Origin: Magnetospirillum gryphiswaldense MSR-1 v2
Lineage (GTDB): Bacteria; Pseudomonadota; Alphaproteobacteria; Rhodospirillales; Magnetospirillaceae
NCBI RefSeq assembly: GCF_000513295.1
Contig: NC_023065.1
Span: 1,240,001-1,304,000 of the forward strand
Reading direction: 5' to 3'
DNA: 64,000 bases
Position 1 is the stretch's first letter, and every line of letters begins with the position of its first letter. Positions 17,032 through 19,529 of the stretch are shown piece by piece. The translations under genes were made by a program, and so were the position numbers. The notes beneath the pieces were generated by a model that had not been told where the DNA came from, did no database searches, and saw only the letters and a list, made by a program, of their open reading frames with translations.

Positions 17032-17943
17032 ATGCGCCTTGCCCTGGTCATCAACCGATCCGCCGGAACTTTTCGCCGCCTGCCGCTGGAATCGACGGTC
17101 GAGGCCATCGCCGCCGTTTTCCGCCGCCATGGTCATGACGTCACCGTCACTGTCTGCGGCAAGCGCGACCTGTCCGCCGCCCTGGCCCAATGGGCAAGGC
17201 GCGACGACATCGACGCCATCATCACCGGCGGCGGCGACGGTACCTTCCTGACCGCCATCCTGGCCGGCCTGGGCAACGACAAGCCGGTGGGCCTGCTGCC
17301 CCTGGGCACGCTCAACCTGCTGGCCCGCGACCTGGGCCTGCCCACCGACCCGCTGGCCGCGGCCCAAGCCCTGGCCTTCAGCCGTGTGGCCGAGATCGAC
17401 CTAGCCGAGGTCAACGGCCTGCCCTTCGCCATCTGGGCCTCGTTGGGCATGCATCCCAGGGTGGTCCGCCGGCGCGACAAGTTGCAGGCCGAGGGATTGA
17501 GCAAGTGGCGGGCCTTCGCCCTGGCGGCGCTGCGCGCCTTTCGCCGTTATCCGCTGATGCAGGTCGACATCACCATCAATGGCGACACCATCACCATGAT
17601 CACCCCCATCGTCGTCATTTCCAACAATGCCTGGGCGGAAACGCCATTGCCCCTGCCGCCGTCGCGGGCCAGCCTGGACCGGGGCGAATTGATGGTGCAC
17701 GTGGCCAAGACCACCTCGCGCTGGGGCTTGCTGTGGCTGGCCCTGAACGCCCTGCTGGGGCGTTGGCGGGTCAACCGCCTGCTCCAGATCTTCAGCGCCG
17801 AGCAGGTGGTGGTGACCGGGCGAAAAAGCCGGATGATGCTGTCGCTGGACGGCGAAGTCACCGTGTTGCGCGCGCCCCTGGTATTTCGCACCCACCCCAA
17901 ATCCCTGCGCGTCCTGGTCCCGGATGAAACGCCATGCGCCTGA
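17032..17943 (+). CDS. Diacylglycerol kinase-family lipid kinase
   Basis: A 303-residue protein with the DAGK catalytic fold: LALVINRSAGTFR at the start, the nucleotide loop ITGGGDGTFLTAIL near residue 65, and LLPLGTLNLLARDLGLP. Such enzymes phosphorylate diacylglycerol, sphingoid bases or related lipids; the substrate cannot be told here. Its end overlaps the next gene by 10 bp, so the two are co-translated. Confidence 0.88.
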   Translation: MRLALVINRSAGTFRRLPLESTVEAIAAVFRRHGHDVTVTVCGKRDLSAALAQWARRDDIDAIITGGGDGTFLTAILAGLGNDKPVGLLPLGTLNLLARDLGLPTDPLAAAQALAFSRVAEIDLAEVNGLPFAIWASLGMHPRVVRRRDKLQAEGLSKWRAFALAALRAFRRYPLMQVDITINGDTITMITPIVVISNNAWAETPLPLPPSRASLDRGELMVHVAKTTSRWGLLWLALNALLGRWRVNRLLQIFSAEQVVVTGRKSRMMLSLDGEVTVLRAPLVFRTHPKSLRVLVPDETPCA

Positions 17944-18704
17944 TCGCTCATTTGTCCGACCTGCATTTCGGCCGCACCGACCCGATGGTGGTCGACGCCC
18001 TGGTGCATGACATCGCCCATCACCGCCCGCATCTGGCGATCATTTCCGGCGACCTGACCCAGCGGGCGAAAAGCCATCAATTCCTGGAAGCGCGCAAATT
18101 CTTGGAACGCCTGGGCATTCCGGTGCTGGTGGTGCCCGGCAACCACGATCTGGCCCCGGTCTACCGCCCGCTGAACCGCTTGCTCAATCCGCGCGCCAAG
18201 TTCGAGAAATATCTGCCGGCCAGCGCCCACGCCAATGGCTGGAACGACGATGAAATCATCGTCATCGGCCTGGACAGCACCCGCCATCTGCGCTGGCAAA
18301 GCGGCAAGCTGCGCGATCATCACCTTGACCATGTGGAAGACAGCCTGCAAGACAGCGGCGATCATCATTGCAAGATCGTCTTCCTGCATCATCCGCCCAG
18401 TACCGCCCAATCGGGCCATCCGTTCCACACACTGACCGAACTTGGCGTCGACCTGATCCTGGCCGGACACGTGCACAAGGCCCATGTGGACCTGATCGAT
18501 TCGCCCGACCATGGCGCCTGCGTGCTGGTCCAGGCCTCGACCGCCTGCTCGACCCGCCTGCGCGAGGATGCCAACGGCTACGCCCTGATCCGCATCGACG
18601 GCCCCAGCCTGGAGGTGGACATCCGCGGCTGGAGCGGCACCGCCTTTCACGCAATCCACCATTACGGCTTTGTCCGCGCCGAAACCGGCTGGCGGCGGGC
18701 TTAG
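17934..18704 (+). CDS. Calcineurin-type metallophosphoesterase
   Basis: A 256-residue cytoplasmic metallophosphoesterase. The metal ligands are visible: HLSDLHFG, ISGDLTQR, VVPGNHDL, VFLHHPP and LAGHVHKAH. It resembles CpdA-like phosphodiesterases, but the substrate is unknown. The pairing with a lipid kinase suggests a phospholipid or phosphate-ester role. Its TAG stop is formed by a target TA joined to the first G of the inserted palindromic element. Confidence 0.88.
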   Translation: MRLIAHLSDLHFGRTDPMVVDALVHDIAHHRPHLAIISGDLTQRAKSHQFLEARKFLERLGIPVLVVPGNHDLAPVYRPLNRLLNPRAKFEKYLPASAHANGWNDDEIIVIGLDSTRHLRWQSGKLRDHHLDHVEDSLQDSGDHHCKIVFLHHPPSTAQSGHPFHTLTELGVDLILAGHVHKAHVDLIDSPDHGACVLVQASTACSTRLREDANGYALIRIDGPSLEVDIRGWSGTAFHAIHHYGFVRAETGWRRA

Positions 18705-18735
18705 GGCGTAAACTCATAAATCCCATGGCGCTCTG
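18704..18735 (+). repeat. Left terminal inverted repeat
   Basis: Pairs with 19052-19083 with a single C/T difference near the inner end (CATGGCGC versus CATGGTGC). The first G completes the TAG stop of the metallophosphoesterase gene. Confidence 0.85.
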
Positions 18736-18831
18736 TTTGTCTAAGACGTCGTAATGCCAGGAAACGAGCGCGGGCTGTACCTTGGGTACAGCCAAGCGAC
18801 GATGACGTCGCAGTACGACGTCTTAGACAAA
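18736..18831. repeat. Internal hairpin 1 of the element
   Basis: TTTGTCTAAGACGTCGTA (18736-18753) is perfectly complementary to 18814-18831. Inside it a second stem, GGCTGTACC at 18773-18781 with its partner at 18784-18793, forms a cruciform-like arm. Confidence 0.8.
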
Positions 18832-18839
18832 CCCGAAGG

Positions 18840-19052
18840 GCACGCCCCGCAAGGCCATCTATAGCATTTTCACGCAAAGCGTGGACATGCGATAAGCCCA
18901 AGCGGCGCCTGAGCAGCCCGTCACGGGCCATTTGTAAGAGTTAGACCAGTTTCCGCTTTAGCTGAAACTGGTCTAACCGTGCCGTCAAATTTGGCGATAG
19001 CCCCGCTATCGCCTGCATTTCCCGGCATCTTATATGGCCTTGCGGGGCGTGC
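18840..19052. repeat. Internal long inverted repeat enclosing two small hairpins
   Basis: GCACGCCCCGCAAGGCCAT (18840-18858) is perfectly complementary to 19034-19052. Between the arms lie a 14-bp stem, GTTAGACCAGTTTC (18940-18953) with 18964-18977, and a 9-bp stem, GGCGATAGC (18993-19001) with 19005-19013. Confidence 0.8.
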
Positions 19053-19083
19053 AGAGCACCATGGGATTTATGAGTTTACGCCC
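19052..19083 (-). repeat. Right terminal inverted repeat
   Basis: Mirror of the left repeat. Its outer C, read on the minus strand, is the G of the TAG stop of the cytochrome c gene. Confidence 0.85.
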
Positions 19084-19529
19084 TAACGCCGATTCAGCGT
19101 TTCCTGGCGCCGGCGGATGTCTTCGGGCCAGGACGACTTGATGTAAGCCAGACTGGCGCGGATGTCGGCATCGCTCAACTTACCGACGAAGGACGGCATG
19201 TCGCTTTTGTAATCGGGCGGGGCGAAACGGGCCAGGCCGTGCTTGGTCACCGCGAACAGATATTCGTCGGCATGGTGCCAGGTATGGCCGCTGACATCAT
19301 GGGGCGGGGCCGGCAACGCGCCGCTGGGCAAGCGTATCCGCCAATCGGGTTGGCCTTGCAATTGGCCGCCGTGACATTGAGCGCAGTGCAGGGCATAGAC
19401 TTCCTTGCCGCGGGCCACCTGGGCGCTGTCGTCGGGGTCGATGCGCCCCCGGCCCTGCCACCAGACCCAAGCGCCGCCCACCGCCCCGATGGCGACAGCC
19501 ACGGCCAATACTGCCCCGATTGCACGCAC
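19083..19529 (-). CDS. Membrane-anchored class I cytochrome c
   Basis: A 148-residue protein with an uncleaved N-terminal membrane segment (AIGAVLAVAVAIGAVGGAWVW) and a periplasmic monohaem domain. The haem site is CAQCH near residue 53, and the likely axial Met is in DMPSFVGKLSD. It could pass electrons to an oxidase or reductase; the partner is not in view. GTG start at 19529 after GGGAGCGGGG. The TAG stop is at the junction with the inserted element. Confidence 0.88.
   Translation of the reverse strand: MRAIGAVLAVAVAIGAVGGAWVWWQGRGRIDPDDSAQVARGKEVYALHCAQCHGGQLQGQPDWRIRLPSGALPAPPHDVSGHTWHHADEYLFAVTKHGLARFAPPDYKSDMPSFVGKLSDADIRASLAYIKSSWPEDIRRRQETLNRR

Follow-up and report, generated by a model that had tools for sequence, protein, structure and literature searches.

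A two-arm miniature transposable element in the shared stop codon of two convergent genes of Magnetospirillum gryphiswaldense

Several described groups of mobile and repeated sequences resemble the element reported here; we characterize them as the cited portions of three sources do. Insertion sequences (IS) of the IS427 group, such as IS1248 and ISPpa2, are mostly 832-865 bp long, generate a 2-bp duplication and in many cases carry two overlapping ORFs (PMC3281130). ERIC/RU-1, Correia/NEMIS and RUP are small MITEs with TA ends whose transcripts fold strongly and for which effects on mRNA stability have been reported (PMC2229807). The CIR repeats of Caulobacter and Brucella are about 110 bp long and consist of two arms and a linker, with no stem joining the ends and with GANTC in a loop (PMC2229807). 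GTAG/CGTC REPs are palindromes of 20-40 bp, often linked to RAYTs, that lie near 3' ends and often between convergent genes, and the ends of GTAG REPs often supply the TAG of a flanking ORF (PMC3733652).

The window analysed here is a stretch of 64,000 nucleotides from Magnetospirillum gryphiswaldense MSR-1 v2 (NC_023065.1, positions 1,240,001 to 1,304,000). Direct reading of its sequence places a gene-less, TA-flanked element of 380 bp at window positions 18704-19083, between a metallophosphoesterase gene and a convergent cytochrome c gene (Table 1).

Insertion into a shared stop codon

The coordinates of the element, its 32-bp inverted ends with a single mismatch (97% match) and the absence of an ORF, all put forward in a first-pass annotation of the window, were reproduced. 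Including the flanks, the inverted arms at 18696-18735 and 19052-19091 are 93% complementary. The palindrome content of the element is far above chance: its DNA fold reached -153.2 kcal/mol, whereas 100 shuffles averaged -68.6 (sd 4.6, z -18.3) and none of them attained that value. Searching Rfam with the element gave a single match, below its gathering score (E 0.07), and the only Rfam hit over seven MITE loci was suhB, located outside the element.

Table 1. Features of the locus, in window positions
Feature	Position	Strand	Basis
Metallophosphoesterase gene	17934..18704	+	Pfam PF00149; TAG stop 18702-18704 = target TA + element G
TA, left copy of duplicated target	18702..18703		sequence reading; empty site has one TA
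Left terminal inverted repeat, begins GGGCGTAAACTCATAAA	18704..18735	+	inverted-repeat match; end also in other alphaproteobacteria
Structured arm A	18743..18825	+ (forward)	R1 79.7 bits; among the 16 arms R1 was built from
Central small hairpin CCCGAAGGG between arms	18832..18840		similar hairpins separate paired arms elsewhere
Arm B, left half	18840..18861	- (forward on minus strand)	inverted repeat with 19031-19052
Nested second repeat ('core' family)	18862..18973		TA at 18860-18861 and 18974-18975
Arm B, right half	18974..19052	-	R1 match 18972-19034, 26.9 bits, interrupted by nested repeat
Right terminal inverted repeat	19052..19083	-	inverted-repeat match
Cytochrome c gene	19083..19529	-	Pfam PF13442/PF00034; TAG stop 19085-19083 = TA + element G
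TA, right copy of duplicated target	19084..19085		sequence reading; empty site has one TA

The orthologous junction is empty in two congeners, where GGCTTAACGCC (G008) and GTTTAACGC (G012) contain a single TA and no element. The metallophosphoesterase orthologue at the empty site ends in TAA, and so does the cytochrome c gene of G008, in which both genes end within one shared TTAA; the end of the cytochrome c gene in G012 was read by eye, as the automated site script did not pick it up. The empty sites agree with the earlier proposal that both genes once shared one TTAA, and the ORF ends at 18704 and 19083 agree with its corollary that each present TAG consists of the target TA and the terminal G of the element. 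In G005, the closest genome by phosphoesterase (92% identity), the same TTAA is filled by a different repeat family in reversed orientation, again with TAG for both genes. The shared stop was thus hit by two families in two species. A second copy of the outer part of the element (G012:C210) has its empty site, GACCGCCTAGCGG, in G011, at the TAG of the upstream gene. At a third copy (G011:C44), G006 aligns without gaps and without the element, with TGTGATC vs TGTAATC at the insertion site, and G012 and G000 lack the element there and contain other extra bases. The element of the window is an insertion, bounded by the ends in Table 1, into the TA of a stop shared by two genes.

The 380-bp element is itself composite, which had been overlooked before: a nested repeat of about 112 bp lies inside an outer element of about 265 bp. 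The nested repeat is identical over 117 bp to a second place in the genome of the window, G000:C1:2838649-2838765. In G011 the outer element occurs without it, so that positions 1-158 join 269-380 directly, and two truncated copies in G005 likewise have no middle third; the G012:C210 copy also lacks the left hairpin. The whole genome of the window holds one complete copy and 13 further places that match the middle third only. The nested repeat targets TA, has the ends GAGCATTTTCACGC and GACCAGTTTC and occurs at loci including G000:C1:2838649, L002-L010 and L050. By eye, its 3' hairpin seems to vary on both sides between copies. At G002:C159:15800-16335, a 36-nt piece of it recurs every 50 bp in a regular array, 11 times among the matches listed.

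The first-pass annotation had also proposed looking for further copies of the end, in this and related genomes, and for a full-length IS that shares it; both exist. The 19-letter end TAGGGCGTAAACTYATAAA gave at least 80 matches, including in Magnetospirillum, Novosphingobium, Labrenzia/Roseibium, Erythrobacter and Sinorhizobium/Ensifer, and pairs of it are spaced 50-61, 169-196, 260-266, 363 and 810-854 bp apart. All 14 loci of the 810-854 bp class contain transposase frames, mostly two overlapping ones, and their IS carry this end on one side or on both. The IS at L145, whose transposase was the only one scanned for domains, has one frame of 254 aa with DUF4096 and DDE_Tnp_1. In the genome of the window, a 110-residue query did not find an intact IS with exactly these ends; it gave six weaker matches, two at 49% (the best full ones), two at 40%, one at 37% and one, at 75% over 52 residues, to a decayed remnant that carries a GGCCATAAACTCATAAA end. 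One match at 85%, with unrecognised ends, was found in G007.

Judged from its sequence, the window element is a non-autonomous MITE with IS5-family, IS427-like ends, the group name being taken from length, duplication and frames. It has an end in common with an autonomous IS, a 2-bp TA duplication and no transposase gene. Points in common with the IS427 group are the TA duplication, the length of the partner IS that share its end (810-854 bp) and, in several of these, two overlapping transposase frames. Unlike members of that group, the element is only 380 bp long, contains no ORF of 100 aa or more within 18704-19083, and showed no IS-derived sequence in its interior when judged by eye. Palindromes of about 51-56 bp that consist of terminal inverted repeats only, the empty frame of the MITE, were seen at L098 (G012:C188), L101, L114 and L143; at L098, TAG ends both neighbouring genes. 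Several contigs of G012, G388, G434 and G079 terminate within elements, so draft genomes probably undercount them.

A folded arm beneath unlike ends

In Magnetospirillum, Novosphingobium and Labrenzia, elements of 260-266 bp have little interior sequence in common but fold alike. In this fold, a basal stem formed by the ends carries two long inverted arms with a small CCCGAAGGG-type hairpin between them. Each arm consists of P1, an AGGA/GACG internal loop, P2, a 3-by-2 internal loop and P3. We considered a kink-turn reading of the AGGA/GACG loop and set it aside because the closing pair does not seem to fit. At L161 and L158 (Roseibium), elements of 363 bp exceed their 264-bp kin by 99 bp, which form two hairpins within arm A.

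Two-sided changes occurred at all 28 of 28 pairs among 16 arms, with a covariation of 0.857 against 0.245 in shuffled and 0.105-0.162 in slid alignments. Covariation among 132 arms found with a covariance model of the arm (R1) was 0.953 against 0.217 shuffled, in an alignment fitted to the model, and two of five pair measures saturate in this set and do not clearly exceed the shuffles (27 vs 26.8 pairs; for types, 13 of 500 shuffles came up to the observed value). Loop letters are also conserved: in 143 model-found arms they are A (99%), G (100%) and G (90%), and A (92%), C (100%) and G (92%). At one pair of loop positions the letters change together; of 132 arms, 94 have A/G there and 22 have C/A.

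The arms also differ between strands. Read forward, the 132 distinct arms contain 208 G-U pairs vs 25 A-C mispairs (181 vs 25 without one loose pair). Scoring by the model, or tolerance of G-T in single-stranded DNA, could account for part of this excess. In the 16 arms of A1, which did not come from the model search, there are 25 G-U vs 8 A-C (p 0.005), although the arm rows are related and p-values for the strand bias are therefore overstated. When arms were defined by their ends alone, the forward strand folded more stably in 34 of 39. Selection on the arm at the RNA level is well supported.

We searched for the arm in Pseudomonadota with R1, whose E-values are rough. It matched 41 of 385 genomes of Alphaproteobacteria, in 37 of 277 genera. 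Of 398 genomes of Pseudomonadota, a sample that overlaps the first, 83 matched, and 61 of these lie outside Alphaproteobacteria. At an E-value of 0.001, 143 arms in 90 loci passed. We followed 139 of these, leaving aside the two of the window, one of L227 and a cut one of L288; 102 fall into 51 pairs of inverted arms separated by under 60 bp, and 37 are single. So many close inverted pairs are not what chance matches would give. A plasmid collection contained only two partial relatives, both of one Labrenzia element.

The same arms, often with the central hairpin, occur under about 17 clusters of terminal repeats besides GGGCGTAAACT, and further unlike terminal repeats were seen by eye in other classes. 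Clustering gave 18 groups in 67 loci, with 27 ends set by eye; the L269 cluster was wrong, which leaves 17, and the largest cluster, of 30 loci, is chained. Among TA-flanked elements, 35 of 46 start with G. These derive from 88 arm groups, of which 41 have no TA-flanked pair of ends, 1 is a duplicate, 11 do not start with G and 35 were used for the other families in the site counts below. Among the loci counted, the end of L225 was placed too far in, and L101, L114, L153, L170 and L200 were kept although they have no clean TA on one side. We also considered module swapping between ends within one genome, where arms under unlike ends were more alike than random (median 0.636 vs 0.5, 34 pairs). 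Since the top four of these pairs depend on the wrongly set L269 end, we draw no conclusion on it. None of six terminal sequences was found in the open-access papers searched. Novelty is claimed against Rfam and the literature searched, a scope that the original CIR, Bru-RS, RIME and ERIC reports lie outside.

Gene ends as insertion sites

Every pair of ends less than 400 bp apart was taken as a site, which gave 70 two-ended sites whose junctions were compared with gene ends from our own codon-model gene caller. A gene ends exactly at the junction in 38 of the 70, and at both junctions in 4. Counted among the 70, and all at stops, are the window copy and L155, L161 and L187, which represent a single Roseibium/Labrenzia site three times; if the window copy and elements shorter than 100 bp are excluded, 34 of 62 are at stops, and a smaller table without some two-ended copies of the outer family gave 35 of 62. 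The emptied target is CTAG at 35 of the 70 sites. For YTAR targets, 33 of 60 lie at stops where 11.1 were expected (p 3e-10), the expectation coming from tetramer-matched non-coding sites, of which 76 of 610 are stops; the smaller table gave 30 of 55 where 10.3 were expected. Counted per junction, with 2 of 110 junctions left out, 33 of 108 are at stops vs 54 of 420. Where a YTAR site has an in-frame TAG at its junction, the codon can only have been TAA or TAG before the insertion; such stops are therefore old and do not mark broken genes.

Orientation of the neighbouring genes is skewed as well. Where both neighbours were called, 28 of 55 sites are convergent vs 94 of 471 in the background, and 23 of these 28 lie at stops vs 24 of the 94. 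In elements with a single arm, the arm does not point consistently towards the gene whose stop is occupied (by eye, few cases). Of 27 IS copies with ends of the IS427 type, 3 lie at stops, a proportion near background, and 2 of 18 are convergent; the difference from the MITEs at stops has a Fisher p of 8e-5, in a comparison between different sets of genomes. The 27 control sites come from 33 candidate loci and include L136, which has no TA on one side; 6 of 19 control candidates yielded no pair of ends. The low number of IS copies at stops suggests that target choice alone does not explain the MITE excess.

The main rival to a role at 3' ends is survivorship, by which insertions could accumulate at stop codons even if they served no function there. 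The element would then be a plain MITE whose ends and structure serve transposition only, and old insertions would last where they are harmless. YTAR is inherently common at stops in these genomes, where 24.6% of the CTAG background sites outside coding sequence are already stops, and the IS copies near background may simply be younger. Other positions between convergent genes should nevertheless be about equally harmless, yet convergent insertions concentrate at the stops themselves, and the strand bias and the kept loops persist in elements with unlike ends. We regard survivorship alone as somewhat unlikely. Alternatively, the transposase could prefer stop codons or the regions around them, and the nested family, with other ends, is also in excess at stops (10 of 17 left junctions found, with 22 loci supplied). 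Such a preference fits poorly with the scarcity at stops of IS with the same type of end and with a stop excess common to families with unlike ends, and we consider it quite improbable.

The structure of the element admits further readings. Its arms might be selected as folded single-stranded DNA, at a replication fork, in a cruciform or as a site for a host protein; the two inverted arms are indeed symmetric at the DNA level, and the element folds strongly as DNA. The asymmetry between G-U and A-C favours one strand and RNA-type pairing instead. We consider the DNA reading unlikely. The palindromes could also be a conserved RNA of the locus, given their strong folding. This had been named earlier as an outcome that would speak against insertion, together with a lack of other copies or empty sites, and neither was encountered at the locus. 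The conserved palindromic structure does exist, as a property of the mobile element and not of the locus, and the empty sites in G008 and G012, the other family at the same TTAA in G005 and the copies elsewhere refute a locus RNA, to which we assign practically no probability. The two-way terminator that the first-pass annotation had suggested was not borne out: a simple scan of 18500-19300 for a GC-rich stem followed by a T run found one such site against 1.1 expected in shuffles. We therefore rejected a canonical intrinsic terminator.

Proposed role and relation to known repeats

We consider it fairly probable that the whole is explained by a trans-mobilised MITE of IS427 type with an RNA-selected, two-arm cargo that acts at mRNA 3' ends. 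An IS427-group transposase would have moved the MITE in trans into a YTAR target, here the TTAA common to both convergent stops, where duplication of the TA and the terminal G would have created a TAG for both genes. The cargo would be two inverted copies of the conserved hairpin arm, seemingly selected at the RNA level. With two arms in opposite orientation, RNA polymerase arriving from either side encounters a forward arm first, which may be what the symmetry is for. Position, strand bias and symmetry suggest that the arm forms or protects the mRNA 3' end. If so, insertion at a stop codon would be harmless or useful, which would explain why exact stop positions are frequent. In the window copy, a second TA-targeting repeat lies within arm B. 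A broader and more tentative possibility is that the interior with its two arms constitutes an independent module, an RNA 3'-end device that has spread over Pseudomonadota on many unrelated transposon ends. Its inverted arms would ensure that a transcript from either neighbour yields a functional arm first, which would account for its settling right at the stops of convergent genes.

MITEs are often viewed as shrunken IS with little meaning between their ends, whereas the cargo here has a covarying, RNA-like fold. This fold is kept under about 18 kinds of ends (the 17 clusters and that of the window) in one phylum, so something seems to select the cargo. The elements provide a case, open to experimental test, in which gene ends and even their stop codons serve a mobile element as landing pads. 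Loci with and without the insertion form a natural experiment that can show what a bacterial 3' end requires.

Like ERIC/RU-1, Correia/NEMIS and RUP, the window element is small, TA-ended and strongly folding. It differs from them in its two inverted arms and in the presence of one motif under many unlike ends, features absent from the descriptions in the cited portion of PMC2229807. ERIC was considered as a relative, as its AGGA and GAC appear similarly placed by eye, but R1 does not match it; against two E. coli ERIC loci with filters off, the best score was 6.5 bits and did not lie over the ERIC. With CIR the element shares two arms and an alphaproteobacterial host, but it has no GANTC, and any GANTC at all occurs in only 13 of 55 elements of 150-300 bp. 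Its length of 380 bp, TA duplication, long inverted ends and IS5-type partner set it apart from GTAG/CGTC REPs. Like GTAG REPs, it lies between convergent genes and its end supplies TAG. Since the cited portion of PMC3733652 reports that GTAG REPs supply TAG to flanking ORFs too, elements of a different kind already provide a precedent for what is seen at stop codons here.
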